Assembly (NCBI GenBank): GCA_015227615.1
Contig: JAALGZ010000078.1
Coordinates: 34,990-98,989 of the forward strand
Direction of reading: 5' to 3'
Source: Labyrinthula sp. Ha
Taxonomy: Eukaryota > Sar > Bigyra > Labyrinthulida > Labyrinthulaceae
DNA: 64,000 nucleotides
The notes under the pieces are model-generated. The model saw nothing but the letters and a program-made list of their open reading frames with translations. It was not told where the DNA came from and ran no database searches. The translations under genes were made by a program, and so were the position numbers. The first letter of the stretch is position 1. Every line of letters starts with the position of its first letter. This document shows positions 5,736 through 61,096 of this stretch, one piece after another.

Positions 5736-7577
5736 ATGTATCGCGCCGTTAAATTACTACGAAGTTTTTCAATATCTAAAAATACCACCTCTCATTTAAG
5801 TCCGTTGACTTGGAGAGCTAGTTCAACCTCTTGGCTACAGTCCAAGAAGGCATTCTCTACGCTGAACTTGTCGAACAACCTCGTAGATGAGTCCTTGGAG
5901 CCAAGAGACTCAATGGAGTATGATGTTGTTATTGTAGGCGCTGGCCCTGCAGGACTGAGCGCTGCTATTCGCCTGAAGCAAATAGATGAAGATTTGAATG
6001 TTTGCGTTGTTGAGAAAGCTGCTGAACTTGGCGCTCACATTCTATCTGGAAACGTTTTTGAACCTCGAGCCTTGAATGAACTATTTCCTAATTGGAAGGA
6101 AGATGGAATGGAACCATTTGGAGAAGATCCAACACCAGCTGCAAACGATACTTTCAAGATCTGTTATAGTGAAAAAGGTCATATTTCCCTTCCTGGCTTC
6201 GCTATACCTCCTATGCTACATAATGAAGGAAACTATATAATCTCACTATCACAATTTGTTCGCTGGCTTGGCGAGCAAGCTGAAGATATGGGAGTGGAAA
6301 TATACCCAGGATTTCCTGCGTCTGAAGTCATTTTTGATGAGGATGAGAATAAAGTACTTGGAGTCGTTACTAAAGATATGGGGATTGGTAAAGATGGACA
6401 AGCAAAAGACACGTATACAAGGGGCATGGAGCTTAGAGGACGGCAAACTATTTTTTCTGAGGGAGCTCGTGGAAGTTGTTCTGAAGATTTGATGAAGAGA
6501 TTTAATTTGAGAGATGAAAAAGTACCTCAAAGTTATGGTATTGGTTTGAAGGAAGTGTGGGAGATTCCTGAAGAGAATTTAAAGCCTGGGTTGATTCAAC
6601 ACACTCTGGGTTGGCCTTTGGGCAATAGCGTATACGGAGGAACCTTTCTTTACCACATGAAACCAAACTATATCCTTTTTGGTATTGATCAATTGTGTCA
6701 CTAATTTTTAGGTCTTGTCGTTGGGTTAGATTATAAGAACCCTTATTTGAACCCTTACAAAGAGTTTCAAAGGTTGAAGCACCATCCAGCTATTTCTGAG
6801 CACTTAAAGGATGGACAATGTATTTCTTATGGAGCAAGAGCTATTAATGAAGGAGGGTTTCAGGCCATTCCAAAGCTAAGTTTTCCTGGTGGAGTGCTTG
6901 CAGGATGTTCAGCTGGATTTTTAAATGTTCCAAAGATCAAAGGAACACATACTGCTATGAAAAGTGGAATTGTTGCCGCTGAAGCCATTGCAGAGCACTT
7001 AGCAAATGAAAATGAAGCACCCGAGGTGGCATCTTACCAAACTAAAATGGAAGAATCTTGGGTATGGGAAGAACTTAAGAAAGTAAGAAATTTCGCACCT
7101 AGTTTTAAGTGGGGAAATTTAGCAGGGGTTGCATATTCTGGAGTTGCCGCTCATGTGTTGAGGGGACATGAACCATGGACCTTTACCAAGACTACGCAGA
7201 GAGATGCTGATAAGACTGCTGAAAAAAATAGCTCTTATGCAAAGGAGATTGAATATCCAAAACCTGATGGTGTTTTGTCCTTTGATATATTGGAGAATCT
7301 ACAAAGAAGTGGAACAAACCATGATCACGACCAACCTGCTCATCTTGTTATTAAACCAGAGCTCCAGAATATTCCGGAAAATGTAAGTTTGCAAAAGTAT
7401 GCGGGTCCTGAACAAAGGTTTTGTCCAGCTAAAGTTTATGAGTATGTTGAGGATAAACTGGTGATAAATGCGCAGAATTGTGTTCATTGCAAGACGTGTG
7501 ACATTAAAATGACTGATGAGTACATTCGTTGGACGGTACCTGAAGGTGGTGGAGGACCAGCTTATGATCTGATGTAA
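5736..7577 (+). CDS. ETFDH: Electron transfer flavoprotein-ubiquinone oxidoreductase, mitochondrial (2 exons)
   Basis: Passes electrons from reduced ETF (from fatty-acid, amino-acid and choline oxidation) to ubiquinone at the mitochondrial inner membrane. Exons are 5736-6681 and 6712-7577; splicing out a 30-nt intron gives 603 residues, normal for the family. Residues 1-55 form a basic, Ser/Thr-rich mitochondrial leader. Residues 62-80 carry the FAD-binding [15 protein letters not shown] fold. The exon junction restores [19 protein letters not shown], a hallmark ETF-QO stretch. The C-terminus has the 4Fe-4S ligands: FCPAKVYEY followed by [10 protein letters not shown], then the usual tail ending in [10 protein letters not shown]. 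The ATG is in a good context and opens the targeting peptide. It stands alone between two gene-poor tracts. Confidence 0.95.
6682..6711 (+). other. Ultrashort spliceosomal intron, 30 nt (ETF-QO)
   Basis: Starts GTATTG, ends TTTTTAG, with a CACTAAT branch-like motif 11 nt before the end. It is phase 1. Removal restores conserved ETF-QO sequence. Retention would give an in-frame TAA inside the intron. Confidence 0.92.
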
Positions 7578-9304
7578 GATTTTTTACACCCCTTAATCAT
7601 TAACAATTTTTTTTGAACAGCACGGCTATCCACTCAAACTCTAACGAACTCATTAATTGTAATCTCATTCGAAAAACTAATCCTCTTGCTCCAATCTAGT
7701 TTATCCTCAATACAAAAAACTCAAGAATGCTGGGGACATTTCTTCTCACAATGAATTATTAGAAGAGGATATGTTGTTAATCGTTTACGAGGCAAAAAAG
7801 AACAAGTGAGAAAGACATGAGCTAGATCTTTGCTTCATGGCTTGACTGTCCTATACGATAGTTAGTCTTTCAAGGAATTTTTGGTACTAGAATCTTCTGA
7901 AGTATTGTTTGGGCCGTAAAATCTCGCATAAAGTTTCTAGATGTGTTGCATTTGACACACTTCTACTCCCCTGAGAACAATACGACTACTTTTTATGTAC
8001 TTCTTTTTAGTCTACATAAGTGTATGAAACTATTGTATTAACCGTATTAACTAGTTTAAATGCTTGTATGATATCTTGGTATTTGGTTGGCAACTTAGCT
8101 AGTACTTATATTCTTGCCAAAATAATTGCAGCAACTCTAATAGCTTGAGGAGCGCTCTACTATATATATAAAGTGACCAATATATAAGGGGTGCTCAATT
8201 TTCATCTTATGGACTACAACATGAAGTAAATAAACCAAAGCTACAAGTAATTGAATATTTCCATAAACGGTAATATGGTCTTATCTCACTTTGTACCTAG
8301 AGGTTTGTTCCATCTAAGAATCTTGTTTTTGCTGAATGTATTCTTGAAGCTTCAATTGGAGTTACTTCAGGCCATATGCTGCTGCTGTTGGCTTAGGAGG
8401 TATCTGGGGCTTCCGGTCTAACCTATAACACGAGTGTCTAATCTACCACTACTGAACTAGATGCATACTGGATATATGCTATGGTACATCTCAACTAGGG
8501 GTTTTGTGCTAATACCCTGTTGCATGAAATAATCTGTCCCTGTAAGGCATGGTTTGTCGATTTCGCGCAAATTATTCTGGGGCTTCGTAGGTCACAACAA
8601 AAATGCAGTATTCTACAAGAAGTAAGGTAATGATACAAGAGGCTTCAGCTGGAGAAATATATGCGGTCAAGAACAATTTCTGATTTTTCAAGTTACGTTT
8701 TCGGGTGAATGTGTCAATTTTGCGTTAATTTTGTGCAGTTTTGTTCCTTGCTTCATCTTGTTCATTGTTGTTGCTGTTATTTGCTTGATCCAAGTGAGAT
8801 GTAAATGTATTTCCAGCTGAGGGGGTTTCTAGTTGCAGGAAAGGCTGGGAGGAGGAGGGGAAGATGTATTGTACTGGTTGCACAAGTTCATGATGTTCAT
8901 CCACTTATTGTTCAGGATTTCACCATTTCTGTTGATCCCGGCTGGGGGTTTTAGTCAAATTTTATTTTCTTTAGAAGCTCGTCGTCTTTGTTTTTTATTC
9001 TTGTTGCCGACGTGTGTCCTGTGTATCGTTCCAGTAGGTGCATATTGGTGTCCTGTTTATATCTCTGTGTTCCGGCCTTTTGGTTGCTGTTTCGTGTCTC
9101 TTTTCTTGACCTTGTCCTCCGCGTCTTTTCAAAAGCCTCTTGTACACTCATAACCCGTAGCGTATAAATAGAACATAGCAGATAACTAAAAGTAAATTTT
9201 GTTTACCCCCTAGTTTGACGGAAAGTTCCAGCATCATGTCGCTTCATCCCTTCACTTCGGAGACTTGCTCTGCAAGTTCGTAAGTGCGGGGCGTCATTAC
9301 ACCT

Positions 9305-9643
9305 TCAGTTTTGGTTGGCAATTTTGAGAAAACTACTTTTCTTTGCTGGGTTGACTTTCACCCTTTCCTGTAGTTTTTGGTACCCAGCTGCGTGTACTTC
9401 TTGGAATATCAAGAGGCTGACTGTTTGATAATGAGGGAGCAAGTAGTTAAGCTTAGTGAAAGTTAGACCATCAACGTCAACGCTCACTAATTTTAGCTTG
9501 TGTTTTAGTTGGTTCGCGAAGGGTGGGACTTCTTGCGGAGCTGTAGAAAGCACTCTACACACAGAAGTCAACAATTCATTTTGTCCTTGTTTCATATTGT
9601 GTACACGAAAATTTGATGACGTGTGAAAATTTACCGCATACAT
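9305..9643 (-). mobile_element. Possible LINE endonuclease (EEP) N-terminal remnant
   Basis: A 112-codon open frame starting with ATG. Its second half reads like the start of an exonuclease-endonuclease-phosphatase domain of non-LTR retrotransposons: LVSVDVDGLTFTKLNYLL, then VSLLIFQEVHAAGY, comparable to the family's 'WNVNGLR..K...L' and 'iiLQEtH' segments. The frame then stops and no reverse transcriptase follows, so if the call is right it is a fragment. It is weak, by-eye similarity only. Confidence 0.25.
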
Positions 9644-9805
9644 ACTCTAACCTCCTGGAAATACGAGGAAGTGTACTTGTTCCAAGTGCACCAGTTATCC
9701 ATTCTAGCTTCTTCATGAGCAAAAACCCTACTTTTAAGTTTATTAAATTTCTTAAATGCTTTGATACATCAAATTGAGCGGCAGAATATACGCAGTCAAG
9801 AAGAT

Positions 9806-9834
9806 CTCTCTGTCTCTCTCTTTCTTCCTCTCTC
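9806..9834. repeat. CT-rich low-complexity run
   Basis: An imperfect CT/TCTC microsatellite of about 29 bp in the retroelement-debris area. No function is implied. Confidence 0.6.
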
Positions 9835-10054
9835 CGAAACAGCATGGAGTACAAGAATTAAGGAAAATCATATGATACTTCTAACCATGTCAAGGCAAGT
9901 GTTTACTTTCAGGAGAGAAGGTTCGCACTTAAGTTTCAACTGTTCATTGCATCTTCAGTACCTAAGCTTCTTCCGCTAAGTACCTTCTGCTTCTTTATAA
10001 GTCTAAGGACCAATACTGTGTCAGAGACATTACTAGTAAGACCGGACGGTTCTC

Positions 10055-10243
10055 ATGTGGTACTCGCTACAAATCAGATATCTCAGTGGTATATACCAAG
10101 ATTCAAGTATGCCATGGAGTCCCTTGATAGCATTTAGCCTGGAATTTTTTTATACAGAACTTTCACACATAATTTTCAAGTTAATAAGAATAATTCTGAA
10201 TTCAATTTCCCAAACAGGCCTATTCCTTTACTTACGGGTTTGA
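10055..10243 (+). mobile_element. Possible Ty1/copia pol fragment
   Basis: A 62-codon ATG frame. Spacing of key residues resembles the connection region between reverse transcriptase and RNase H in copia elements. The family pattern is LSxF..P...H...KRILRYL.GT...GL.Y; here SLEFFYTELSH, then K and R about 4 and 7 residues later, then GLFLY. Several conserved positions differ (no TRPD, no RYL). Downstream frames are broken by stops. If correct this is an old degraded insertion. Confidence 0.3.
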
Positions 10244-12061: not shown

Positions 12062-12104
12062 CATTGAAAAGTCAACGAAAGCGCCCACATTATGAAACGT
12101 GTTT

Positions 12105-15100
12105 TTACAAGTTATATACTTTCCAATTTCTTCTTGGGTATTTTATTTGAATGAATACGTCTTTCGAATAAACTAAGAAGCCTAGGAAATCATATACTTG
12201 TATGGTTTGCAGGATGACTTTTCTTATTTTGAATGTCTTCATTGTGAACGATAAACTCATACATTCTGTAGTAGATGTTTTTTTTACGTTGGTTATGAAG
12301 CAAATGACTGTTGAAGTAGGGCCCATTCCATGAACAAATATTTCTCGGTGTGGTTCCTTTACCTCTATTCCAAAGGAAAATATGTATTGGTTAACTAGTT
12401 CTGCAAGATTTAATAACTGACTTTCAGCTAGCACTTCATTTTGAAAGGTAAGTTTAACCTTCAGCTCTGTTAGTTGCATTAAATTAGCAAAAAAGTATAG
12501 TTCTGAAGCTTTAAAACGAAACCTCTCCTTTGAATTCAAGTACTTGCACAGAGTCTGGTTTTCTCTTCCATAATAATCAACAAGTGATACACATTTCTTG
12601 ATACAACTTCCATAGTTTTGGTCTAGGAGACTTATATAATTCTGACTAAGCTTGGGGACAATCAGAATATATTGCTCAGCTGTGACTGATGTTACAAAGT
12701 TAAGACGAACACGGGTTGCTGGAGAACTGATTTGTCTTTGTGCATATTTGCAAAATAAGGTAAGACGATCCAGACGATACAGTTCATGTGTATCAGAATC
12801 AGTTGTTTGAATGGGTGTACTAGTTATAATATGAGGATACGTTTTGTAAGCCCGTATTATGTTTTGCTGTAAGGCTTCGATCAAGATCCAATCAATTGGT
12901 TGAGTTAACTTACCAGATTTCCGTAGAAATGAATTTTGTAGATACTGTATTAGCTTGATGGCGCCACTCTTTCTAATGATGTATGCAAAGGTACCCCCTC
13001 CATGGCTTCTACCTCCTGTAGCCATTTCATAGAGGTTAAGGCCTTCTCTAATTTGCCGCACAAAGTTATTTCGATAAAGCTCATTATTGTCATCACTAAA
13101 CCCTAGATATATTAAGTCCCAACTGTAATCTTGTTGAATAATTTTTGTTAGAGTTGTCAGTGCGTCCGGAAATTGCGGTTTAAGTACAACGTCATCTTCC
13201 AAAACCAGTATATAGTCATAAAATCCATATATAGTTGATTGAGAAAGCATATTGTATATAGTGAGGTGTGAGAGTAGACAGCCTATTACGCCTGCTCTGT
13301 TACCATGATCTTCGTATGGATTGTACTCAAAATTAATTCTTGATGAATAATCTGCGGTAGACAGAGTTAAATAAATATCTAGTTTCGTAGTTGGTTGTAC
13401 TGAGGATCCATCCATAGCTGAGAACCTCTCCACACTTAGACCATTGACATTATTCTGTATATTCCTTAATATTTTCTGCGTTTTTTTCCACTTGTCGGGT
13501 CTCCTGTCAAGATTTATTACCTTCAGTTCGGACAGTAAAGATGTCATTTGATATGAAGTGCAGTAACTGTTGTGTTGATGGATAGACTGAGGAACCAACA
13601 GAAAAGCTGTTTCCTCATCTTCATTGCGCCTGCAATAGTCCGGATGTTCCACTGGAGGACCTGACCATTTTCCAAATTTTACTTGCGAGCCTATACCAAG
13701 TTGATTGTTAATACCAGATAGGAGATCTTGGGCCCCTGAGTAATCCAGTGGAATATTTGTTACTGTCCAGGTGCTGATTAATTTCTGTAAGACAACTTTT
13801 GACATGGCGTCCAGATCTTTTTTTTCAGTAGGGTTAAAAATGGCCTCACCAAGCAAGACACGATTTCCTTGTATAGAGAACTCAATGGAACAGTTAGAAA
13901 GAAGAACAAACTCTGGATGGCTTGGTATTTTCTCTAAATATCTGAAAAACTCTAGTTTCCTGAAAAAGAGAATCTTTCGCTGCCTCGATTTTATTTCCTC
14001 CCTTAACATGAGTTCAGCTGCAACCTTATCATTTACCCAAGTTGTGTATAGTCGAGGATATAGCTTTTCACCACACTTTTTTTGTAAACTTTGGCTCCAA
14101 ATTAATTTTGCTGGATTCATTTTGGAGCCAAGGCGCCACATTGAGCTGAGCTGTTGCAAGATAAAAGTGAAGGCAGTCTGAGTATTTAGATTCTTTCTAG
14201 TTGTAAAAACAAAATTTTCCCTCCAAATTAGGGCTTTCTGCATATAGAAAGAAACTTCATTGGAACTGATTTGGTGCAGAAACGTGGAGAGGGAGTTCTT
14301 CAGGTTCCATTCAGATACCACTACGGAGAGCTCTGATTCCAATTCACTGATATGAAGAGATGAATTAGGTTCAAACACAACAGGAATGCAACCAGCATAA
14401 ATTGCTTGATAGAACCTGGGGGACCATGAAACCCAGCCTGGTGGGGACAAGCAAAATTTGGATTGACTTAGTTCAAACAAGTATTCTTGGTACAGTGGTA
14501 AACTAACACCAAATATTTTAACTCCGGCCTTTTTTAGATCACTTTTTTGCATAAATAGTTCTTGACGAACTCCAGTACTATAGACATAGCTTTTTTTGTC
14601 TTCTTTAGGTTGAACAGTTCCCCGAAAATATGCAACATTAGGTCTAGTTCTAGCCAATGTTATCGACTGAAGGTACTCCTTCGACCCAATGAAAGGAAAT
14701 AGAGTGAGATCCTTATCCCCTCTGAAGCATGGTTGCCTTAATCTATGCGACAGATTTCTATGCATCTTAACACCAGGGTCTAGCTGCAATAGTTCAATGT
14801 CTATTAACTCTTCCCTGAGAAATGGTTGCAGAATATGAATTTCGTTATAATCCTCATGGACCAAACATCCCCCTAGATCATGAGAGACCAAAATGACATG
14901 CTCCTCCCAGTTTTTGATATTAAAGTTTTCTTTTACAGCTGCAATTGCCCTGTGAACTAGGTCAAAACCTCCAGCTAAACCAACGTCTGGTTTAAAGGAA
15001 TGCATAAAGAATGTTGCAAGAACAGGGATAAAGAAATACTCTGCCTCTTCAAATGTACTAAGATGAGCTGAATTAAATAAGTTGCAGTAGAAAGCATGCT

Positions 15101-15338
15101 CAGATAAGTACATCCTTTCCCATGGATCGATCTGTCTCTTCGCACTCAGTTGATGAAGTGAGAATGCTTCTTTCAGGGGATAGACGAAAATTTTTGGTGA
15201 AACAGCCCCCTTTCGCGCACCATATTCCAAGTAGTTGGAATAAGAATCGGAATAGCAATTTAAAACATTTTCTACATCTTGTTCTATTGTCAACGATAAG
15301 ATTCTTCTTAACAAACAAAATATTAACAATATCTTCAT
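12105..15338 (-). CDS. Two-domain glycosyltransferase: exostosin (GT47) plus GT25
   Basis: A 1077-residue intronless protein, likely working in the Golgi/ER lumen. Residues 1-16 form a hydrophobic signal sequence or membrane anchor. Residues about 40-400 are exostosin-like (GT47): HVILVSHDLGG, RGDKDLTLFPF, and the signature near 290-325 (FCLSPPGWVSWSPRFYQAIYAGCIPVVF). Residues about 600-870 are GT25-like: VINLDRRPDKW, FSAMDGS, an AGVIGCLLSH motif, and the metal-binding LVLEDDV near residue 710, with GGGTFAYIIRKSGA after it. The last 200 residues match nothing I recognise. The substrate cannot be read from sequence. The start codon is 32 bp from the divergent gene at 15371. Confidence 0.85.
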   Translation of the reverse strand: MKILLIFCLLRRILSLTIEQDVENVLNCYSDSYSNYLEYGARKGAVSPKIFVYPLKEAFSLHQLSAKRQIDPWERMYLSEHAFYCNLFNSAHLSTFEEAEYFFIPVLATFFMHSFKPDVGLAGGFDLVHRAIAAVKENFNIKNWEEHVILVSHDLGGCLVHEDYNEIHILQPFLREELIDIELLQLDPGVKMHRNLSHRLRQPCFRGDKDLTLFPFIGSKEYLQSITLARTRPNVAYFRGTVQPKEDKKSYVYSTGVRQELFMQKSDLKKAGVKIFGVSLPLYQEYLFELSQSKFCLSPPGWVSWSPRFYQAIYAGCIPVVFEPNSSLHISELESELSVVVSEWNLKNSLSTFLHQISSNEVSFYMQKALIWRENFVFTTRKNLNTQTAFTFILQQLSSMWRLGSKMNPAKLIWSQSLQKKCGEKLYPRLYTTWVNDKVAAELMLREEIKSRQRKILFFRKLEFFRYLEKIPSHPEFVLLSNCSIEFSIQGNRVLLGEAIFNPTEKKDLDAMSKVVLQKLISTWTVTNIPLDYSGAQDLLSGINNQLGIGSQVKFGKWSGPPVEHPDYCRRNEDEETAFLLVPQSIHQHNSYCTSYQMTSLLSELKVINLDRRPDKWKKTQKILRNIQNNVNGLSVERFSAMDGSSVQPTTKLDIYLTLSTADYSSRINFEYNPYEDHGNRAGVIGCLLSHLTIYNMLSQSTIYGFYDYILVLEDDVVLKPQFPDALTTLTKIIQQDYSWDLIYLGFSDDNNELYRNNFVRQIREGLNLYEMATGGRSHGGGTFAYIIRKSGAIKLIQYLQNSFLRKSGKLTQPIDWILIEALQQNIIRAYKTYPHIITSTPIQTTDSDTHELYRLDRLTLFCKYAQRQISSPATRVRLNFVTSVTAEQYILIVPKLSQNYISLLDQNYGSCIKKCVSLVDYYGRENQTLCKYLNSKERFRFKASELYFFANLMQLTELKVKLTFQNEVLAESQLLNLAELVNQYIFSFGIEVKEPHREIFVHGMGPTSTVICFITNVKKTSTTECMSLSFTMKTFKIRKVILQTIQVYDFLGFLVYSKDVFIQIKYPRRNWKVYNL

Positions 15339-15370
15339 ATTTAATTCAAACGGTTATATCAATACGGGAA
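15339..15370. promoter_or_regulatory. Very short divergent intergenic region (32 bp)
   Basis: The start codons of the minus-strand glycosyltransferase and the plus-strand propeller-like protein are separated by only 32 bp. Either the promoters overlap the opposite genes or one real start is further inside its reading frame. The plus-strand frame stays open back to 15122, inside the glycosyltransferase gene. Confidence 0.4.
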
Positions 15371-31235: not shown

Positions 31236-34200
31236 CTAAGCAGTTGGTTTAATGAAATGTTCCTTAGGCACAGGATGCTCCATCTTATACGATGCTTGCC
31301 TCACAACTTCTGTCATAGTAGCTTCAAACTGCCATATATCTTTCTTTGCTTTGAAATAAGGCAAGTAGTTGTCTTTGTTCTTCAACTGGGCCTTCAACTT
31401 AACTGGACAGAAATCATCAATTTCTTTATTTACTGCAGCGGAACCTGGCTTGAAACCTGGGCCAGAAAGCAACAACAGCACAAATTCACCATCTTCACGT
31501 TTCTCAACTGCATTCTTCAAGAAGAATGAGTACCTCTTGAAGATCCCTGGAGTACAGAAAAGAACCACAACAAGCTCACCGTCACTTCTTTCTACATTCA
31601 AAACTCTATCCTTCACCTTTTGTGCTTTTGTATAACGACCACCTGTTTTCATATATTTCTCTGTTTCTTTCTTAAGATTGTATGATGTTTTCACCTTACT
31701 AAAAACTTTATTTCTATAGTCAAGTGGGTCCTTGTGTTCTTCCTCAGACAACTTATTCCAAGTTGAAGGGCTTTCTAATGCAGAAGCAACTTCAGCAACT
31801 CCGTTAGCAATTTCTTCATAGATACTTGGCCCAGAAAGAACAAAAACTCTAGCTGCTCCTTTCTTCTCACGCTTCGCTGGCAAGAAATACAGACCCATAA
31901 ACTTATCCTTGTGCTCCTCCATTTTCTTTGCTTGCAGATCTCCTCCTCCATCGAGGTAGTTCTTTCCACCCATTGAACCAGCCTCGTAAGGTGTGAGCTT
32001 TCCTAAACGTACCAACTTTCCACCAATCAGCATTTTGTCCAGCATGGAAGGCAAAAGGAAACTCTCAGGCTGATACTTGATAGGATCTTGGATATAGGAC
32101 AGAATCATAGGATGCACCTTCTCATTTAGAAATATGTTCCAAGAGTCAAACAAGTCATCAAACATTTTGTTTAGCCCTCCTATGCCTAGCGCAGAGAGCT
32201 TGAGATTCCCGGCTCTGTCTTCCTCAGCCAAAGATTTCACGAGATATTGGAAAGAGTCACTTTGCGTCCATTTTTCTCTAATATCCTTCTTGTTAAATGT
32301 CAAGTTGTGCTTCGAAAGATTCAAATGCCCCCCAAGTAATAGGAAGCAGACACGAGCTTGGGCTCTCTCATCCTTTAGACGAAAATCCTCTGCAATGAGC
32401 AGCTGCTTCATTACACTCGGCTTGTAAAATGTCTCACTAGTTAGTAAACAGCAAATAACTCTGGCGGCTTTCACATTGTTATACAAGACCTTGTCATCTG
32501 AGGCATCAGGGTCAGAGTCTGTAGTTAAACGACAACCAAATGTAGAAAGCGTCTGCTTCAGACTTCTGATGACAGACCCAGCTTGCTCAAACTCTGTGTT
32601 GATAAGATGAACATGAGGCTGAGAAGCTTTGTATTCTTCGTGGTAAAAGGAACTTTCACTACTTGGAAGCCACTTAAGTTTGCTTGATAAAGCCTTGGTA
32701 ATGTTTGCAACATCTTTCTCCGCGCTATACTCTCCTCTGTTAACTTCAGCCATGAAAGGATGGTTTAGAATTTCATTGAAACTTGGCCTATCACCCGGTC
32801 TTCCCTGAAGACACCACTGCACCAAGGATTTTCCACATTCAATGATTTTTTCGATTTCTCCCTTATTGTAGCCTTGATCCCCCCCAAATACTCTCAGTTG
32901 GGACAGAACAAGGTCAACACGTTCTTCGTCCAGACATAACCAGTTAGCAAGCTCACCACGATCTTCGTCCAGTAGAATACTGTCATCTCTAGCCTCCATG
33001 CGAAACAGAGACGTACCTGACAGCATCTCGTACAGGACACATCCAAACTGCCAAACATCCATTTTCTCATCAGCTTCAATTTTATACTTAAGCGTGGCAT
33101 CGCTACTTAAAGTACGCTTAGCGACCTCTGGAGGATTATAAGCGGAATTCGGATCTGGAATATAAATATCTTTATGCTTCGTGCTTCTTGTCATGTCAGT
33201 CAAAACCCACTTACCAGGCATAAGTTCAACTCCATTGTCTAAATCAGGGAGTTCATCACCAACACGCAACACAATGTTTCTTGGTTTGACATTTCCATGA
33301 ATTCTAGGTTCTTTTAAGAGCTCCCTCTTGTTAACTATATCTGCGTCAACAATGTTCTTAATCCATTTTCTGTCATTAAACTTTGAAAGAGATTCACAGA
33401 GCATCTTCAAAATGATGCGACTTTTCTCCAAGTCACGCCCTCCAGCTATGGACTGGTTATCTAAAACTGTCTTAAGATCGGTCTTGTACATAGTCGAAAA
33501 TGTAGGTACCAGTTTATCATCCGTAAGTGCCTGTTCGCGATGATGAAGCTGACTAATCTGAGCCCAATAATTGATATCCAAAGTTGCATTTACCCTTTTC
33601 AATATCATGTTCTCAACTTTGATGAAAGATTTACTGTCATCAATATAACTAGTTGGGCTTTCCATGAAGGAATTGTGAGCATCAAAGTCGTTTTGAGCTA
33701 ACTTCTGGTCCTCCTGTGGTGAGGTCCTTGCAATCTGGCGCATATAAAAAAATCTTTCGCTGTCATCATATTCTTCTGTGAGTAGGAGGTCTTCTACTTT
33801 GGATACCCTAATATAGCGGGATTTATAAATTGAATCAACAATAAGAAACCTGAAAAGAACAAGGTCCTTTGCCTCAGCGTATCTTTTCACAAACTTATCC
33901 TTACTTTGCAGACAGAGGTCTCTGTAGGTTAAACCAGAGGCAGCAATCATTTGCTCTAAAAACACGGGAGATTTGGTGCGCACAGTTCCAATCCCTATAT
34001 TCTTATCTTTTCTTCGTTGCTTAGAGTTATGGGCTTTTGTATAAGCATGAGCAGGAAAAACGTTCAGAAACTGTCTAACTGGGTCAAGCAATGGACTCTT
34101 GCCATACTTGAGAACAGCTTCAAACATGGTTAACCCACCACTTACAGCCGAAGTTTGTGGCATTAATTGCTCCCAAAATAACTTTATATCGTCTGCCACC

Positions 34201-36278
34201 AGTTCTTCCACTATAGCCTGTTTGCTCATGTTATTTAGGTTGTCGTAGGTTGAACGGTATCTCTCACGGTGAAGATCTTCGATGTATTCCTGAGACTGTG
34301 AAGCATACTGTAAACGCATTAATAATCCATACCTGTACAACGTATTTGCAACACAACTCCCCCAACCCAGCTTAGTAAAAACATGAACAAGCTTATTCCA
34401 GTAGAGCTCGCCCCTGTCAGATTCTAATAGGCCGAATGACTTGTAGGTACAAAGCATTAATATCTTGAAGGCGTCTTCTTTCTCTTCATTTTGTCCAACA
34501 ATGACAATTCCTTCCTTGTATTGTGAAGTATCTTGCTTATCCTTTTGAGATTTCGGAGCAGGCGGTGTGTCAAACATAGCAAATTTAGTGTTATATCCTC
34601 CGCCAGCTACTCTATTCCCTCTTGACGTATTCATATCTCTAATCTTCAGTGGTTTCACCCCAGCAGCCTTTTCTTCTTGCTTAGTTTTTGCATCCACACC
34701 TTTCTCCAAGGCACTTGCTTTCTCTTGTGCTAAGCGTTCCGGGCGGTTATAAGGCTGTTGACCTTTGCTCTTGATATATTTTAGAAGCATTTCAGGCTTC
34801 TCACGAACTGAGATTGCTAAATGGTTAACACCTGCAATAGTGATATCGTCAGGGAGGATATGAAAAGTAAACGTTCTCCCATACCATTTGATGTCACATT
34901 GTCTAGCTCGAAAAGCCTTCTTAAAAAAAATTGCTCCTTTGAGACCAATCTTATTCAGGCGAAGATCCAACTCGTTAAATATTTTGTTCTTCGTGACAAT
35001 TGCTGCCAGATGCTCCGCACCGTCTGCAGTAATTGCATTTTTCATCAGGCTAAGCTTGTGAAAATTATTTCTTTTACTTTGAATCTCCTTAAGCTTACTT
35101 TTTGCGTGGGCGACAAGTTTTTCATTACACTTAGCATATTCGTAATTGTCTTGTTCAGCAACTCTGTTACAGTCCCAGCCCGTAAGAAATTCCTTCCATT
35201 TCTTGGCACCAAAATCGGTAAGTTCATTTCCTTCATAGTTCAACGTGTGGATCCTACAATTTTTATGTCTTAACATGTCGGTAAGGGCACCGATGTTATT
35301 CCCCAAACCATTTGCTCCAACCGCAAGGTTTTCAATTTGAGGATGAGGACCAAAGGGTTGCTGATACCTGAGCAACATCTTCTCACAAAAATCAATAAAC
35401 TTGGGAGTGGTAATTCCACACTTATTCATCTTCAAGGCTGTTAAGGTAGTATTCTGCGTCATCATGGAAACAACCGCATCGAAACCTCTATCTGTAAAGG
35501 GATTTTTAGAAATGTTAAGATCTCTGAGGGTCTTATTCTTCTCTGGTCCATTTTCAAAGTTAGCTACAATTTCCGCAATTTCTTCACATCCAAAGTTATT
35601 TTGGCTCACGTTTAGACCTTGAATATGACATGCTGATTTCAGAAGATCAGCCACAAGCATCCCACCTTCTTGGTCTAGCTTCGTGTTTTCAATAGCAAGA
35701 GTCTTCAGATTTTTGGTTTCCTTAAGTGAGCCCAAAATATCTTTCAAACCCTGCGCCCCAAACTGCTCATTGTGGCCTATTTCTAGCTTTGTTAGACAGT
35801 CTCTCTTAAGGAGAGCATTCAACCCAACCGCGACTTCAGGTCCGAACTTATTAAAGGAAATATTTAGTGTGTGAATTTTGCCATGACTTGCGATACCAGA
35901 GAAAATGGCACTGGCACCACGAGTTCCAAAAGCGTTCTTGATTAAATCCAATACCCTTAAGGATTTGTTTACTTCGAGCATCGGTTGCATGTGATCGACG
36001 ATTATTTCATCTGACAAGTTACATCGACTCATATCGAGCTCCTCTAAATGTGGGTAAGTTCTAAGAGCCTTAAAAAAGGCTTTGATATGATTGGTAAAAG
36101 CAACTGCAGAATCTGAGGCACTTAAGGAAACTCTTACGCGAAGTTTCTTAATAACCTCTGGCTGCTCGCTCTGAAAATTCCTTGCAAGAAATAACAGTCC
36201 CTGAGAGTTATCTACCGTCCTCCACTTCTGCATTAAATCATAGGGGGCCCACTTCGTAAGACTACTTCCTGCATTCAT
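31236..36278 (-). CDS. LRR, pseudokinase and TIR-like multidomain protein
   Basis: A 1680-residue intronless protein starting at ATG. Residues about 40-480 are leucine-rich repeats of ribonuclease-inhibitor type with a 28-30 residue period (for example HLEELDMSRCNLSDE, SLRVLDLIKNAFGTRGASAI, NELDLRLNKIGLKGA). Residues about 480-580 are a charged, Lys/Pro-rich linker. Residues 580-880 are helical and unrecognised. A kinase fold spans about 890-1175. The loop is HGNVKPRN at 994-1001, with Asn996 where the catalytic Asp should be, and DMT at 1028-1030 replaces DFG; DVWQFGCVLYEMLSGTSLF and RPSFNEILNHPF are intact. A TIR-like alpha/beta domain follows at about 1220-1350 (DDKVLYNNVKAARVICCLLT), and a second similar fold at about 1475-1640 (ELVVVLFCTPGIF, EFVLLLLSGPGF). 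There is no signal peptide, so it is probably cytosolic. The domain order suggests a sensor or scaffold; this is inference. Confidence 0.8.
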   Translation of the reverse strand: MNAGSSLTKWAPYDLMQKWRTVDNSQGLLFLARNFQSEQPEVIKKLRVRVSLSASDSAVAFTNHIKAFFKALRTYPHLEELDMSRCNLSDEIIVDHMQPMLEVNKSLRVLDLIKNAFGTRGASAIFSGIASHGKIHTLNISFNKFGPEVAVGLNALLKRDCLTKLEIGHNEQFGAQGLKDILGSLKETKNLKTLAIENTKLDQEGGMLVADLLKSACHIQGLNVSQNNFGCEEIAEIVANFENGPEKNKTLRDLNISKNPFTDRGFDAVVSMMTQNTTLTALKMNKCGITTPKFIDFCEKMLLRYQQPFGPHPQIENLAVGANGLGNNIGALTDMLRHKNCRIHTLNYEGNELTDFGAKKWKEFLTGWDCNRVAEQDNYEYAKCNEKLVAHAKSKLKEIQSKRNNFHKLSLMKNAITADGAEHLAAIVTKNKIFNELDLRLNKIGLKGAIFFKKAFRARQCDIKWYGRTFTFHILPDDITIAGVNHLAISVREKPEMLLKYIKSKGQQPYNRPERLAQEKASALEKGVDAKTKQEEKAAGVKPLKIRDMNTSRGNRVAGGGYNTKFAMFDTPPAPKSQKDKQDTSQYKEGIVIVGQNEEKEDAFKILMLCTYKSFGLLESDRGELYWNKLVHVFTKLGWGSCVANTLYRYGLLMRLQYASQSQEYIEDLHRERYRSTYDNLNNMSKQAIVEELVADDIKLFWEQLMPQTSAVSGGLTMFEAVLKYGKSPLLDPVRQFLNVFPAHAYTKAHNSKQRRKDKNIGIGTVRTKSPVFLEQMIAASGLTYRDLCLQSKDKFVKRYAEAKDLVLFRFLIVDSIYKSRYIRVSKVEDLLLTEEYDDSERFFYMRQIARTSPQEDQKLAQNDFDAHNSFMESPTSYIDDSKSFIKVENMILKRVNATLDINYWAQISQLHHREQALTDDKLVPTFSTMYKTDLKTVLDNQSIAGGRDLEKSRIILKMLCESLSKFNDRKWIKNIVDADIVNKRELLKEPRIHGNVKPRNIVLRVGDELPDLDNGVELMPGKWVLTDMTRSTKHKDIYIPDPNSAYNPPEVAKRTLSSDATLKYKIEADEKMDVWQFGCVLYEMLSGTSLFRMEARDDSILLDEDRGELANWLCLDEERVDLVLSQLRVFGGDQGYNKGEIEKIIECGKSLVQWCLQGRPGDRPSFNEILNHPFMAEVNRGEYSAEKDVANITKALSSKLKWLPSSESSFYHEEYKASQPHVHLINTEFEQAGSVIRSLKQTLSTFGCRLTTDSDPDASDDKVLYNNVKAARVICCLLTSETFYKPSVMKQLLIAEDFRLKDERAQARVCFLLLGGHLNLSKHNLTFNKKDIREKWTQSDSFQYLVKSLAEEDRAGNLKLSALGIGGLNKMFDDLFDSWNIFLNEKVHPMILSYIQDPIKYQPESFLLPSMLDKMLIGGKLVRLGKLTPYEAGSMGGKNYLDGGGDLQAKKMEEHKDKFMGLYFLPAKREKKGAARVFVLSGPSIYEEIANGVAEVASALESPSTWNKLSEEEHKDPLDYRNKVFSKVKTSYNLKKETEKYMKTGGRYTKAQKVKDRVLNVERSDGELVVVLFCTPGIFKRYSFFLKNAVEKREDGEFVLLLLSGPGFKPGSAAVNKEIDDFCPVKLKAQLKNKDNYLPYFKAKKDIWQFEATMTEVVRQASYKMEHPVPKEHFIKPTA

Positions 36279-36681
36279 TGTGCAAACTTCTAAAAAGTAA
36301 AATACTTCGGTGTTGTCTTAAAAATTTAAAAACCTTGTGGTGATGGACAAAATCATAAATTTAAATAAAAAGGGGGGGAATAATCCAATTTATGTACAGT
36401 TTTGTTGGTAGGTTAATCAAATAATGCAATGTGGATTTAATTCGTTTTTTTTTCTTCTTCCTTCTGGTATTCGTTTCAGTTTTTGCTTGGATCGTTCATC
36501 CAATCAGAATGATTCTATTCCAGGAAAAGAAACATTGTCTAATTGCTTCGATTATCAGAAATAACTTCACATATTCTGCTTCTGATATAAGAACTTAATT
36601 TCACTTAATCTAATGCCAAATTTTGAATCGCCGAGAGGATCGGGAATTGAATTTTGAAATTGAAGAAAACAAAAACATAGA

Positions 36682-37311
36682 ATGTCGTTCGAAAAGATAG
36701 AAAAGCTTGCCACGATTATGGGCAGCACGTAGTTACCGAGCTTGAAATTATTGTTTAGGTCCAACTATGACACAACCTTAAGAGTTTTAAGCTATGCTTC
36801 TGTGCTGTTGTCTAGTAAGTACGCCCCGGGCTCAAAGGAATTTCAAGGTTTACTGGATTTCAACTCCAAAATTGGAGATGCCCGGTTCATCAATAGGTTT
36901 TATGGGACCATTCATATGTACCAATGGCTTAAAGCTGCAAAGACCCCTAATGATAAGGTAAAGGCCTTAAGTATGTTCCTTATGCATCCTCTGGACAATG
37001 CCTTTTGGATTTCTACTCTAGAGGGAAATCCATTGAACATTCCAACAATTCCATGTTTACTTTGGATTTCAAGGTTATGGTTCATTTACATCGTAACTGA
37101 TTTTAAAAAGAATGTCGAAACTAGTTTTTCTGGTGAAAAGAGAACGGATGCCCAGAAACTCTACACTAAGCTAAGGATGGTTACTAACATTTGTGACTCG
37201 ATGATTGCTCTCCAATATGTTACCATTAACCCACTGTTTCCTGTCAAAGCTGTTCAATATGCTGGATTGATTGGAGGACTTTGTGAACTCTATGCAAAGA
37301 TGCTCTTGTAG
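36682..37311 (+). CDS. PEX11: Peroxisomal biogenesis factor 11 (2 exons)
   Basis: Membrane-shaping protein that elongates peroxisomes before division. Exon 1 is 36682-36728 and exon 2 is 36759-37311; joining across a 30-nt intron gives 199 residues. The N-terminus MSFEKIEKLATIMGSTSNYD then TTLRVLSYASVLLSS corresponds to the family's 'T.GRDK..R..QY' opening. GDARFINRFYGTIHMYQWLKA matches the conserved 'sdaRk..RL.....' helix. The end, FPVKAVQYAGLIGGLCELYAK, is the usual C-terminal membrane-associated part. The open frame without exon 1 would have only a TTG start, so the short first exon is needed. It is divergent from the LRR gene with 403 bp between starts. Confidence 0.85.
36729..36758 (+). 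other. Ultrashort intron, 30 nt (PEX11)
   Basis: Starts GTAGTT, ends TTGTTTAG, phase 2. Removal supplies the ATG exon of PEX11. Retention gives an immediate in-frame TAG. Confidence 0.85.
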
Positions 37312-45930: not shown

Positions 45931-46260
45931 ATGTCAGCTTTCAAGAAATTAATTCCGCTTGCAGGTAAAATGAATAAATTTGAGTGAAATATAGATAGAA
46001 TATTAATTAAAAGAGCTCAGCAAGTTCAAAAAACAGCAGCTGGAATATACTTGCCTGAATCCGCACAACAAAAAGAGAGAACTGGTGAGGTAATGGCCGT
46101 TGGACCAGGAGCTAGAGATCAACAGGGAAATGTAATACCTATGTCAGTTATTGTTGGAGATACTGTTTTGTTGCCTGAATATGGTGGACAGAATTTAGAG
46201 CTTGATGGCGAAGAATTTCAATTGTTTAGGGATCAGGATTTACTTGGTAAATTCGAATAA
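45931..46260 (+). CDS. HSPE1: 10-kDa chaperonin, mitochondrial HSP10/GroES (2 exons)
   Basis: Co-chaperonin that caps the HSP60 ring in the mitochondrial matrix. Exons are 45931-45964 and 45995-46260; removing a 30-nt intron gives 99 residues, the usual size. The junction restores KKLIPLADRILIKRAQ, the conserved N-terminal beta-strand. The mobile loop that docks HSP60 is QKTAAGIYLPES. GEVMAVGPGARD and VGDTVLLPEYGG are the typical core motifs, and the end is FRDQDLLGKFE. There is no separate leader, which is normal for mitochondrial HSP10. Its stop is only 19 bp from the stop of the convergent FUN14 gene. Confidence 0.95.
45965..45994 (+). other. Ultrashort intron, 30 nt (HSP10)
   Basis: Starts GTAAAA, ends AAATATAG, phase 1. 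Removal joins the two halves of the conserved HSP10 beta-strand. Retention gives an in-frame TGA inside the intron. Confidence 0.93.
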
Positions 46261-56421: not shown

Positions 56422-57264
56422 ATGGCAATAGCAGGATTAATTGCAGGTTGTTTAGAAGCAATAGTGACTATGCCATTTGAGGTGGTTAAGACAAGGCAGC
56501 AAATAAGTACTACCCAGGGAAACAACAAACCTTTCAGCCTCTTGTACAAGACGAATTTCAGGTCATTGGCTGGCCTTAAATCTTTCTACACAGGGTTACC
56601 AGTTATGATGCTTCAAACTGGAGGAAAGGCTTGTATCAGGTTTTATTCGTATGATATTTTACAAACGCATCTAGGAGGGAATAAGTTACTCTCAGGAACA
56701 ATTGCTGGATGTTTAGAGGTACAAAGTTCCTTTCCCCTTCTTTTAGGCTGCTCTTTGGATAACACCTTGTGAAAGATTAAAAATTCTGCTGATAAAGCAC
56801 TCAAATGAACCCAAGAAATGGAATAGAATTGTTCAAAGTTTATACTCCTCTGGTCTTCGCGGTACTTACCAAGGAACTTCAGCAACTGTGATTCGCAACG
56901 GAGCCAGCGGTAAGTTTTCGTTTTATTCTTAGTATAGTTGGATTTCGGTTTGTACTGTTCGATTTCATTCAACCTTACGTAAACAATGCTGCAGCTTCTG
57001 GAGCTATCGTATTTGGTTTTTGTTATTTACTGTTAGGTTGGAGCTATCAGCACAGTCTTGAACAATCCAGTTGATGTTATCAAGTCAAAGATGCAAGCAG
57101 AAACAAAGGGAGTTAGTTTAGTGCAAGTTAGTGTTGATCTATTCAAGCGGGAAGGTGTTTTATACCTTTTCAAAACAGGACTAGGTGCTCGACTCCTCAA
57201 GATTACAATCGGCCAAGCTGTAATTTTTCAAACAGTTGACATCATGAAGAAAAATGGTTTTTGA
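56422..57264 (+). CDS. Mitochondrial carrier, tricarboxylate/citrate (SLC25A1/CTP1) type (4 exons)
   Basis: Inner-membrane solute carrier. Exons 56422-56718, 56747-56909, 56938-57008 and 57037-57264 join across three 28-nt introns into 252 residues. All three carrier repeats are visible. Repeat 1 has LIAGCLEAIVTMPFEVVKTR. Repeat 2 has TIAGCLEAALWITPCERLKI, with the first P of the signature kept. Repeat 3 has AIVGAISTVLNNPVDVIKSK. Citrate-carrier-like segments are YTGLPVMMLQTGGKACIRF, GLRGTYQGTSATVIRNGAS and the end KTGLGARLLKITIGQAVIF. The length is short for the family (about 290-310) because the N-terminus starts almost at the first signature. The citrate assignment is probable, not certain. 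Confidence 0.85.
56719..56746 (+). other. Ultrashort intron, 28 nt (carrier intron 1)
   Basis: Starts GTACAA and ends CTTCTTTTAG with a pyrimidine-rich 3' half; phase 0. Removal restores AGCLE-AALWITP of carrier repeat 2. Confidence 0.92.
56910..56937 (+). other. Ultrashort intron, 28 nt (carrier intron 2)
   Basis: Starts GTAAGT and ends TTAGTATAG; phase 1. An earlier TTAG, five nt upstream, would leave an in-frame TAG, so the last AG is used. Removal gives RNGASVGFRFVLFD. Confidence 0.88.
57009..57036 (+). other. Ultrashort intron, 28 nt (carrier intron 3)
   Basis: Starts GTATTT and ends ACTGTTAG; phase 0. Removal restores the repeat-3 GAIVGAIS glycine motif before the PVDVIKSK signature. 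Confidence 0.9.
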
Positions 57265-57344
57265 AACCTACGCCTGCTCCTTTCTACTGACGCTGCTCAC
57301 TCTCCAAGCTAAATAAGCACTAGTAGTAGTTTTTACTACAGTAG

Positions 57345-57551
57345 ATGAAAGTTCTTCTTGCCTTTTGCACTGTATGCGTTCTATTCCTCAGCTCTTGTTT
57401 TTCCTATGGAAGAGTTATTATTAACCCTAACATAAAGAAGTTACGAGTGGCTGAATATGACATTCCAAAGGTGGAAATAGACTGTATCAACTCAGTAATA
57501 CCACACAAAATCATCACAAATTTGTATGGTACTGGAACTAAAGGGCGATAA
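57345..57551 (+). CDS. Small secreted protein, unknown
   Basis: 68 residues with ATG start and TAA stop. Residues 1-21 (MKVLLAFCTVCVLFLSSCFS) are a clear signal peptide. The mature part of about 47 residues is Ile/Lys-rich with one Cys and ends KGR. It starts 80 bp after the carrier stop and ends 56 bp before the next gene, so it lies in a dense same-strand run of three genes. No family recognised. The signal peptide and placement favour a real gene. Confidence 0.5.
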   Translation: MKVLLAFCTVCVLFLSSCFSYGRVIINPNIKKLRVAEYDIPKVEIDCINSVIPHKIITNLYGTGTKGR

Positions 57552-57607
57552 TTCAATCCCTCAACAAAAAGTTACACAAAGAAAGAACAACAAGAAAGAG
57601 TTAAAGT

Positions 57608-58155
57608 ATGAGACCTCCGAAACCAAACGAAGCTCTTATTGTAAACCACTATCTATCAGATGACACTGAAGAAGAGAGTGATCACTCATCACTCTCTTCT
57701 CAATCAACAACTGCAACCAAGATAATGCCAGTTATGGCCCCAGATCACAGTTCCATAGCGACAAATGCGATGCAGTCGAGTAAATGATTCTTGTTAGAAT
57801 AAAATTAGTTGCGAGTGAGCTGCGACCAGCTATTGTAGAAGCAGAGATTAATAAATATAGAGGGACGCCGCAGTATCAACAGTACAAAAAGCAGATTCAG
57901 TTGAGGGATGAAGAGTTAGAATCCAGGGGACACACGATAGAGATCTCAAAAGAGCCGCAAAGAATATACGATAGGCAAAGAAAAGTCGAGAAACGCAAAA
58001 AGGTTTTATTTCCACTTCTTGCATTTTGTCTTGTACTTGTTATTATTGGTGGAATTGTTGTGGCAGTTGTAGGTTCATCAAACTTAGCTGAAAAAAGTTC
58101 TTTGCAAGAAACATCTTATCCAACCTTAGTGCCTACCTTACAGCCAATTTCGTAA
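57608..58155 (+). CDS. Single-pass membrane protein, unknown (2 exons)
   Basis: Exons 57608-57779 and 57809-58155, joined across a 29-nt intron, give 172 residues. Residues 1-57 are acidic and Ser/Thr-rich with no signal peptide. Residues 59-122 are charged and helical, ending in a basic cluster RQRKVEKRKK. Residues 123-145 are a transmembrane helix (VLFPLLAFCLVLVIIGGIVV). A short Ser/Pro/Thr tail with two TLxP repeats follows, then TAA. The basic residues before the helix predict an N-in, C-out topology. The frame keeps protein-like composition after the TAA (see 58156-58732), so the protein may have been longer. Family unknown. Confidence 0.6.
57780..57808 (+). other. Ultrashort intron, 29 nt (membrane protein)
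   Basis: Starts GTAAAT and ends AAAATTAG; phase 1. Inferred from frame continuity and match to the other introns rather than from homology. Confidence 0.7.
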
Positions 58156-58732
58156 CCACTAACTGAAGATGAACTTATAACTCTTTGTAATGAGAATGAT
58201 GGTGACTGACCATATCCTAATTTTGATGACAGGTTGGTTACTATTCGTTTATAGTCCAAAAATAAACTTCTTTCTACAAATTCTACGGACTTTCAAAAAG
58301 GACGACTGTATCGGCTTGTTCTCAAAGTAGTTTGCTGTGTAAAAAGTAGAGTAAAATATAAAATTATAAGTTTTCTTTTTGTATTTTCTTAAACTCTTAA
58401 TTCGCTTAAACCGCTTATATTACAAGGTACTCATATTTCAAGAGTATTTGAACAGCTAGTAATAAGAATTTATTTCAGTCCATATGTTTCAAACTTGAAC
58501 TAACATTACACCAGAGGGCTGGTGTCTTAAGTGGGAGGAGAATACTACTTCCCCATGTCAGAAAACTAATGAAACCCGGGTCCTGAAAGACAATGTTGAA
58601 TTTTTTAACTGCCATAGCAAAGAAATGACAACCTGCAAGAAATGTTGTAGCGACACGAAAGAGCTTTCAGATTTTGAGGAAGAATCATGTGAAAAAAACG
58701 ATACGGAAGAAAGTTCTAGATCTTTAATATGA
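58156..58732 (+). pseudogene. Coding-like extension with stops and a Cys-rich piece
   Basis: Directly after the TAA at 58153-58155 the same frame reads PLTEDELITLCNENDGD before a TGA. A possible 31-nt GT-AG intron (58202-58232, containing CCTAAT) would skip the TGA and open a further 35 codons. After a gap, 58499-58732 is a clean frame with seven Cys and many acidic residues (EGWCLKWEENTTSPCQKTNE and onward), ending in TGA but with no start codon. These may be remains of an extracellular Cys-rich domain of the upstream membrane protein, or exons of a separate gene I cannot assemble. Confidence 0.3.
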
Positions 58733-59379
58733 GTTACTTAGTTATTTTAACTGTAGGATGTTTTTCAAGATTTGCTTCTCTCGTATTAACCATATTCTTT
58801 GGTGAGAAAATCGTCCGCAGTTTACACAACATGAAACAAATTTGCACAGGCTTCTTACCTTCCCAATCAGCTTAGGCACAACCAGGGAGACCAAACTAAT
58901 GCTTAGACTCCTTTTTGCATTATCTGAGATATAAATGAGGGAACATTCTATAGTTTCTCTGGACTTTTATATCGTGCAAATCACCGCAACCATTCCGGAA
59001 ACTGTTGATGTTAGTGATAGTTACATGAAATACGTGATCATCATCATAGCAATAAATACAATAAGCAAATATTCCGACAATGTTGCTGAACTGTCAGGTT
59101 GTACCAAAATATGCTAAATTTACCTTGAGAATAAAGGTGTATACCCTTGATCATAGTATCTGGGAAAAATGTGCTGCAAGGCAGTCATGTTACCTTTATA
59201 CAAACCGTCTTTTATACCTTGTTTAAACATTTCAACTAAAAATATTCCTTCTAAAACGATACTGTGAACAGCATATGTATAAGAAAGTGGTAAGGAGATG
59301 AGTAGTAACGAGGGGTTAATCTATTCATGAAAGTTAAAGTATGAGCTGTACTGGATCCTACTCGGTAGTGCACGCAACC
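58733..59379. other. Intergenic region, 0.65 kb
   Basis: Between the Cys-rich remnant and the end of HIS7. It holds one 60-codon ATG frame (58935-59117, plus) without motifs; probably chance. Confidence 0.5.
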
Positions 59380-61096
59380 TCAGTTCCGTACTTGTATTCT
59401 ATTTTTTCGAAGAGCTTCTTTAACATCCTCTACTACATATTCATCTCTGTGAAACATCCCTGCTGCTAGTCCAGCTTCTACTTCAGTCTGCTTAAACAGA
59501 TCAACAAAATGTTCAGGACAACCAGCTCCAGATGAGGCTATTACAGGAATCTTTGCTCTTTCCTTCACTTTTTCAATGAGACTTAAATCAAACCCTGCAT
59601 TCTTTCCGTCTGCATCTATACAGTTCAGCATAATCTCGCCTGCACCAAGTGCTGTAACTCCATCTACTAAGTCAAGCACATTCAAGTCTGTTTCTTCTCT
59701 GCCTCCTTTTATAGTGCACACATACTCACAAATTTCCTCTTCTCCAGTTCCTTTGTTCACAATTCTCACCAATTTACTCTCATCAGCTGGAGGAACTTTA
59801 ATAACCCTTCGCTTTGAGTCGACTGAAATAACTACTGCCTGAGCTCCATAAGGCTTCGAAATCTGCTCAATGCTACTTGTTCCATCGAGCACTTGACCTG
59901 CATCTAACCACTTTTGCACAGACCTCACAGCATCAGATCCAATACAAACCTTATCGGCACCACATCTAAAAAAACGCTCTGCAACTTGAAGCGCAGTTAC
60001 AGTACCATAGTCTCTAATCCCTCCTCCAATGCTCAAAGGAACAAATACATTTTTGCTTACTTCTCTCAGGAGATTCTGAATAGGTTCATCTTCAAGTACC
60101 TATGCATAAAACAAAGATTCAGAATTACTCCTTCCTTGAAACTCATTATACTCAGAAAGGCAAGTTCATCACATCCTTGATCATAGTATTTTTTAGCAAG
60201 CTCTGACGCTATTCCCAAATTACGCACTTTCCTTTCAGCCTTGTCCCGAACATCATATCCGACACCTTTTGTTACAACCAGCTGATTGTCATCATTTCTT
60301 CTCACGTCCAAACAAACTAGAATTCTCTTACTAAGGCCTAGATTTAGTTGACTAAAATAATTATACCGAATTGATGAGTTTTTAATAGTAGTTTTTCAAT
60401 AGGCTCCTTCAAAGAAAGGTTTAGGAATTGTGCAAATATATTTAATCCCAATCTTCCAGATTTTTCAGGGTGGAATTGGGTGGCAATTAAATTTTTGAAG
60501 GTGATAGAGGACACATAGCTTACCTTTCCATACTCGGTCGTTGTGAGAACGTTATCTTGAATTGAATTTACATTTGGAACGCAAAAGCTATGGACAAAAT
60601 AGTATCTCCCGCCTTTCACTATTCCATAGCTGTCTAAGTTCTTATCAGATGAAACAGTATTCCATCCTATATGAGGAACTGATGTTTTTGAAGGTACTCC
60701 TTCTGCAAAAACAGAGTTAAAGTGTTTTACAGTTGAATCAAGAAGGTTTAATCCTTGAGCTTCGCTTGAGTTTGGGTTCTCAACTTCATCAGAGGATTTA
60801 AAAAGTGCTTGCATTCCAACACAAATACCAAAAACTTTCATTCCATTCTCGATAACTTCTTTTAATTTCACTCCAAATTGATTCCCATATTTCTGATGTT
60901 TGTTTAAGAACATAGCAACTTGTGAGAAATGCCCAACTCCAGGGAAAACCAAATACTCAACATTTTCCATAGATATTTGATCTGGTGATTCAATGTATAT
61001 TATTTCTATTTGATCACTTACATATGCAATTGCATTGTGTACAGACCGCACATTTCCTGCTCCATAATCCAGAATATGAACTTTTCGTTGAACCAT
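59380..61096 (-). CDS. HIS7: Imidazole glycerol-phosphate synthase, fused HisH-HisF (3 exons)
   Basis: Bifunctional histidine-biosynthesis enzyme: the glutaminase half releases ammonia and the cyclase half uses it to form imidazole glycerol phosphate and AICAR. Exons are 61096-60367, 60337-60129 and 60099-59380; two 29-nt introns are removed to give 552 residues, the same size class as fungal and plant HIS7. Glutaminase triad: Cys92 in GICVGMQ, His209 and Glu211 in TQFHPEKSG; the oxyanion-side PGVGHF is also present. The HisF barrel starts at [13 protein letters not shown] (Asp254), continues with [38 protein letters not shown] and [14 protein letters not shown], and ends in AGMFHRDEY. Splicing is essential: without it the two halves look like separate genes. 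Divergent from the OTU gene (90 bp). Confidence 0.96.
60100..60128 (-). other. Ultrashort intron, 29 nt (HIS7 intron 2)
   Basis: On the minus strand starts GTAATT and ends TATGCATAG; phase 0. Removal restores the HisF stretch [13 protein letters not shown]. Confidence 0.92.
60338..60366 (-). other. Ultrashort intron, 29 nt (HIS7 intron 1)
   Basis: On the minus strand starts GTATAA and ends CAACTAAATCTAG, with an ACTAA branch-like motif; phase 1. An internal TTTTAG is skipped. It lies exactly at the HisH-HisF linker. Confidence 0.93.

Follow-up and report, generated by a model that had tools for sequence, protein, structure and literature searches.

Introns mostly of 28-32 nucleotides in a labyrinthulomycete, with a near-fixed branch-like adenosine and a changed U6 box

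How small introns can get, and what the spliceosome reads when it has almost no room, is an open question. It is raised by 64,000 nucleotides (nt) of contig JAALGZ010000078.1 (hereafter, the window; intron coordinates without a locus label are window positions), in which nine segments of 28-30 nt interrupt six genes. An earlier sequence-only reading described these segments as a uniform population of 28-30-nt introns, all of the form GTA...TAG. The population is real and narrow; in a larger sample, however, the range is 28-32 nt, one intron measures 127 nt, and GTT, GTG and CAG ends occur. These are best described as U2-type spliceosomal introns of a labyrinthulomycete with a usual size of 28-32 nt, and because a 127-nt intron is tolerated, this size is a strong mode rather than an absolute rule. 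Introns of this size are among the smallest known. A labyrinthulomycete, a single-celled relative of the slime nets, thereby joins the organisms with tiny introns, in spite of a sampled genome part in which exons take up less than half of the DNA.

All nine segments were located again in the sequence where they had been described, with lengths of 30, 30, 30, 28, 28, 28, 29, 29 and 29 nt and GTA...TAG ends throughout. Each leaves a single phase open on both sides, and its excision yields a continuous protein. Homology had been put forward for eight of them, and the corresponding matches were recovered for HIS7, HSP10, the carrier, ETF-QO and PEX11. The two 29-nt introns of HIS7 (60338..60366 and 60100..60128, minus strand) are fixed by the reading frame, by alignment of the spliced protein with yeast HisHF over both junctions and by a public gene model. 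In HSP10 (30-nt intron at 45965..45994, plus strand, between exons 45931-45964 and 45995-46260), the chaperonin-10 alignment runs without a gap through the junction at residue 12. The carrier gene contains three 28-nt introns on the plus strand (56719..56746, denoted CAR1; 56910..56937; 57009..57036), fixed by the frame and a public model, and its spliced protein shows three Mito_carr stretches in Pfam. The 30-nt intron of ETF-QO (6682..6711, plus strand, exons 5736-6681 and 6712-7577) is in frame and contains an internal stop; the protein matches PDB entry 2gmh (E-value 4e-190), but the alignment opens a gap of 2 residues close to the junction and by itself does not fix the site exactly. The PEX11 match (30-nt intron at 36729..36758, plus strand, exons 36682-36728 and 36759-37311) is weaker, a Pfam hit of 27.2 bits against a cut-off of 23.8, and its stretch 8-170 covers the junction at residue 16. 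The ninth intron, of 29 nt (57780..57808, plus strand), lies in a gene for a predicted membrane protein (57608-58155) and is placed by frame and coding score, a Pfam search of the protein having given no match. The proteins read with the standard code align across the intron junctions.

Public annotation, as indirect transcript evidence, is available for three of these genes. After splicing, the products of HIS7, ETF-QO and the carrier gene show 100% identity over their full length to the EukProt MAKER proteins P0001, P0121 and P0241, respectively, all on a single scaffold. In the MAKER quality index (QI), the second field states what share of the splice sites has transcript confirmation. This field equals 1 in all three models (QI strings beginning 47/1/1/1 for HIS7, 143/1/1/1 for ETF-QO and 130/1/1/1 for the carrier); the fields that come next in the HIS7 model, 0.66 and 0.5, represent agreement with SNAP. 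The annotation edit distance is 0.01 for each model, and a value near 0 indicates that the intron-exon coordinates agree with the aligned evidence (PMC3280279). Thus, six of the nine window introns sit in genes with identical, transcript-tagged models, the tags being properties of the models and not reads. The exon numbers of the models are 4, 2 and 4; those of ETF-QO and the carrier equal the numbers derived here, whereas the HIS7 model has one exon more than the three needed for coding. Accordingly, HIS7 probably carries an additional intron in an untranslated region (UTR), and a 31-nt GTA...TAG segment in the 3' UTR (59321..59351, minus strand) is one of several unproven candidates.

The source genome (assembly G000) comprises 50,840,425 bases in 153 contigs. 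Besides the window, about 219 kb of further loci (labelled with L-numbers) were examined, for about 283 kb together. An initial junction scan based on codon usage with strict thresholds was defeated by the weak coding signal of single codons: it did no better than controls, and its 8 GT-AG candidates included no segment of 26-32 nt. A semi-Markov gene finder then replaced it. The three-periodic coding scores of this finder were learned from 37 open frames at least 250 aa long, and it was run without any length preference, allowing any GT...AG of 15-250 nt. It called 39 introns, 10 of them in the 27-31 nt class (three in the window, five in loci that were kept and two in L015, which was later dropped); runs with 30 control dinucleotide pairs called 28-45 introns in total and 0-4 in this class. 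The total score for GT-AG (3285) was not the best among the 31 runs. In five later loci outside the training set (50 kb), the prior-free run outlined 11 gene stretches with two introns, of 32 and 28 nt, both GTA...TAG. Of the nine window introns, the prior-free finder detected three; adding a prior on the length class brought back all nine, a recovery that is not independent.

With the class prior, 32 introns were called, of which 18 were kept (nine in the window and nine in other loci) and 14 were dropped. Calls in L005 (three) and L015 (four) were rejected for lying in frame chains that are broken by single stops and look transposon- or pseudogene-like; the others dropped were two in L011, one in L013, three in L019 and an unsupported one of 36 nt that lay close to the 5' end of the gene in L017. 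The chains themselves (L005:2788-9620, minus strand; L015:4755-10000, plus strand) consist of long coding-like frames with mostly single-stop breaks, and are perhaps transposons or pseudogenes. The kept introns placed by frame, namely that of the membrane protein, two in L018 and one each in L021 and L023, all carry the bias of the class prior; the prior-free runs also gave those at L018 5649-5678, in L021 and in L023.

Homology fixes further introns outside the window. Pyruvate carboxylase (L009) has introns of 28 nt (with a CAG end), 32 nt and 29 nt with gapless junctions, glycerol kinase (L014) has one of 28 nt, and methionyl-tRNA synthetase (L017) has a probable one of 29 nt that adjoins an alignment gap. 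A search of the genome for the Cpn60/TCP-1 family gave 19 matches, read as nine genes, of which six were taken for analysis and aligned with PDB chains of CCT beta, CCT alpha, CCT eta and HSP60; the five CCT genes were also aligned with each other, and this mutual alignment is the basis for the introns of L031 and L032. In the six genes, 15 introns are exactly placed and three are probable. Fourteen of the exact ones measure 28-32 nt; the other, in mitochondrial HSP60 (L033:1456-1582, minus strand), is a GTA...TAG intron of 127 nt. Among the probable ones, a 30-nt GTT...TAG intron of CCT beta (L028:1467-1496, plus strand) is in frame without a stop and hence invisible to frame-based readers. 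No stop was found in the matched parts of the three remaining Cpn60/TCP-1 genes (one matched over 1-419 of 490), nor in those of 14 proteasome and 8 HSP70 matches, searches that stop-free in-frame introns or introns at the outer ends could escape.

The resulting set of 36 introns (9 from the window, 9 from other loci and 18 from the Cpn60/TCP-1 family; 27 exact by homology, 4 probable and 5 placed by frame) is a sample of the genome. Within it, 35 introns fall in the range of 28-32 nt (28 nt in 11, 29 nt in 9, 30 nt in 9, 31 nt in 3 and 32 nt in 3), the remaining one being the 127-nt intron. All 36 are GT...AG, a count to be read with the fact that GT and AG were required during searching. Beyond these dinucleotides, 33 of the 36 begin with GTA, two with GTT and one with GTG, and 35 end with TAG and one with CAG. 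General compaction of the genome is a poor explanation for the small size because the genome is 50.8 Mb long and only about 38% of the sampled 283 kb (107,696 nt) is predicted exon, which upholds the view of the sequence-only reading that compaction is an unlikely cause.

Inside the 35 short introns, the most constant element is an A close to the 3' end. It stands at position -8 in 25 introns and within -9 to -7 in 34, counts that none of 5000 shuffles of the interiors reached. The third and second bases before it are mostly T: position -11 holds T in 27 introns, and position -10 in 25. The branch consensus is yUnAy, which this arrangement resembles. Judged from the sequence, a branch point at about -9 to -7 can be proposed with considerable confidence; with the A near -8 in this role, the lariat would measure about 21-25 nt and the tail 7 nt. 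Little is fixed between GTA and the branch-like A, and the interiors are rich in T (0.49; A content, 0.256). Past GTA the 5' site is weak: A in 13 and T in 12 introns at +4; A in 15, T in 13, G in 5 and C in 2 at +5; and T in 23 at +6. The one exception to the A rule is CAR1, which belongs to a transcript-tagged gene model and from position 8 onward contains no A other than that of the terminal AG. Non-adenosine branching thus becomes directly testable in this intron.

A search for spliceosomal small nuclear RNAs identified three copies of U2 with the canonical branch-binding motif GUAGUA, three matches to U1, of which the aligned one has the canonical 5' end ACUUACCU, and U4. The U4 gene, together with a U3 gene, lies beside U1 in L025. 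The U1 and U2 genes are about 4.6 kb apart and form an inverted duplicate on C96:200293-222920 of G000, with a third copy on C135:72694-77477. A search for U12 gave no match in the genome, but no control genome matched either. The sole Rfam match to U6 above the cut-off (L027:1501-1609, equal to C46:223545-223653 of G000; minus strand) is preceded by a TATA-like sequence and followed by a T run, and reads AUAUAGAGAAGAUUAGCAUGG where the Rfam consensus is AUACAGAGAAGAUUAGCAUGG; thus, AUAGAGA replaces ACAGAGA. In a pattern search allowing either C or T at the changed base and up to 2 mismatches, this copy matched exactly and three others with 2 mismatches. The U6 box is reported to be 100% conserved in 240 species, 230 Saccharomycotina and 10 outgroups, and in human U6 the central A of the ACAGA box faces intron position +4 (PMC10581693). 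Because of the latter, the base changed here should face +5. The replacement of ACAGAGA by AUAGAGA would then alter pairing with +5, which fits the rarity of G at this position, and the pair of observations constitutes a natural test of U6 pairing. An AUAGAGA box did not occur among the literature matches listed. A role of the U6 change in splice-site pairing is put forward tentatively.

How such units are recognized can be approached through the sequences that are not introns. Predicted exons (107,696 nt) contain 64 GTA...TAG pairs with a spacing of 28-32 nt, where other spacings lead one to expect about 74; at 30 nt there are 7, and the other multiples of three average 12.5. Given that such pairs remain in exons, these ends and the length are insufficient to define an intron. 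The mechanism that we favor, with moderate confidence, is intron definition, whereby the spliceosome would recognize the two ends of the short unit jointly; information that the ends and the length lack would come from the branch motif and may also come from the T-rich interiors. That the spliceosome is tuned to one size in this way, as the sequence-only reading had it, is a plausible hypothesis. A more specific version, a rewiring particular to this lineage in which the AUAGAGA box and the loss of +5 G go together with recognition by GTA and the near-fixed distance from the branch A to TAG in a 28-32-nt unit, and CAR1 branches through a non-adenosine, is unlikely as a whole.

Several observations weigh against parts of this interpretation. 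The length class has its outlier in the HSP60 intron, the ends have their GTT, GTG and CAG exceptions, and a search with tRNA synthetases left larger gaps that may hide longer introns. In the 108 kb predicted to be exon, GTA...TAG pairs of the intron-like spacing show no clear deficit. CAR1 offers no visible branch point of the ordinary kind. The U1 score, 66.2 bits, is just below the Rfam cut-off of 69.5, and the genome search for U5 gave no match, although the control was silent too. Regarding U6, the frequency of A at +5 (15 of 35) is little above the A content of the interiors, and the loss of METTL16 that was expected to accompany the U6 change had to be rejected on finding a METTL16-like protein (PF05971, 145.5 bits; C88:1119299-1119976 of G000, minus strand).

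That the segments arose from errors in sequencing or assembly, or are skipped during translation, is scarcely credible in view of their common ends, narrow length and fixed A position, the protein alignments across the junctions and the identical public models tagged as transcript-confirmed. We regard the segments as genuine introns with near certainty, and the joint claim that they are introns and that the branch position is as placed as very probable. A more serious competitor of intron definition is a passive floor, a model proposed for mikrocytids (PMC10245619), under which deletion bias shortens introns to the steric limit of an ordinary spliceosome, nothing is tuned to size and the U6 change is incidental. 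The predominance of the shortest classes (11, 9 and 9 introns of 28, 29 and 30 nt against 3 each of 31 and 32 nt) and the persistence of the 127-nt intron are what such a floor would leave; yet the upper edge is also sharp, as none of the 36 has a length between 32 and 127 nt, and the U6 change affects the very base expected to lie opposite the 5' splice site. We consider this explanation plausible, at somewhat less than even chances.

Blastocystis and the labyrinthulids are usually both placed in Bigyra, so the short state might have been inherited from a common ancestor rather than acquired by separate shortening. More than half of the introns of Blastocystis ST1 are 30 bp long (PMC5608401), as this scenario would have it; at odds with that peak, the median stated for Blastocystis in another paper is 19 nt (PMC12817076), and inheritance appears improbable. 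The position of the source organism comes from a tree of one gene, ETF-QO (22 proteins chosen from 120 listed), in which the window protein groups with Aplanochytrium, Hondaea and Mucochytrium in a seven-member set (support 99/97), is sister to a metagenome protein (100/100) and stands next to Aplanochytrium (92/89). This tree would place the source among labyrinthulomycetes near Aplanochytrium.

Comparison with other systems shows which features are shared. Blastocystis ST1, also a stramenopile, likewise has a sharp intron-length peak, there at 30 bp, and GT-AG ends but is intron-rich (35,412 introns) and has U12-type introns as well (PMC5608401), whereas here no intron was seen in the matched parts of 14 proteasome genes and of the HSP70 matches. 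The introns of Paramecium are also U2-type and very short, with medians of 24 nt (P. bursaria) and 25 nt (P. tetraurelia), but it is a ciliate and its introns are shorter than those described here (PMC12862383). Parallels in Stentor coeruleus are extremely narrow lengths, a near-fixed branch A, conserved U1 and U2 motifs and an uncompact genome; its introns, however, are 15-16 nt long with the branch A at position 10 and a 5-nt tail (PMC9505925), compared to a branch-like A about 7 nt from the 3' end of 28-32-nt introns here. Narrow classes of tiny introns are also found in mikrocytids (16-17 bp) and chlorarachniophyte nucleomorphs (18-21 bp), which differ in having still shorter introns and the reduced genomes of intracellular lineages (PMC10245619). 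The red alga Cyanidioschyzon merolae also has a base change within the ACAGA box of U6, in that case from the central A, facing +4, to U (cited in PMC10581693), whereas here the preceding C, which should face +5, has become U. Among the open-licence literature matches listed, no title or beginning of an abstract points to an earlier report of such introns in a labyrinthulomycete. Thus, what is new here is the lineage (as far as searched), the U6 box change beside a rare +5 G, and the CAR1 intron.

The window also contains two long open frames on the minus strand. One (31236-36317; 1693 aa) encodes leucine-rich repeats and a kinase-like domain, with no intron seen, and the other (12105-15353; 1082 aa) combines exostosin GT47 and GT25 glycosyltransferase domains.

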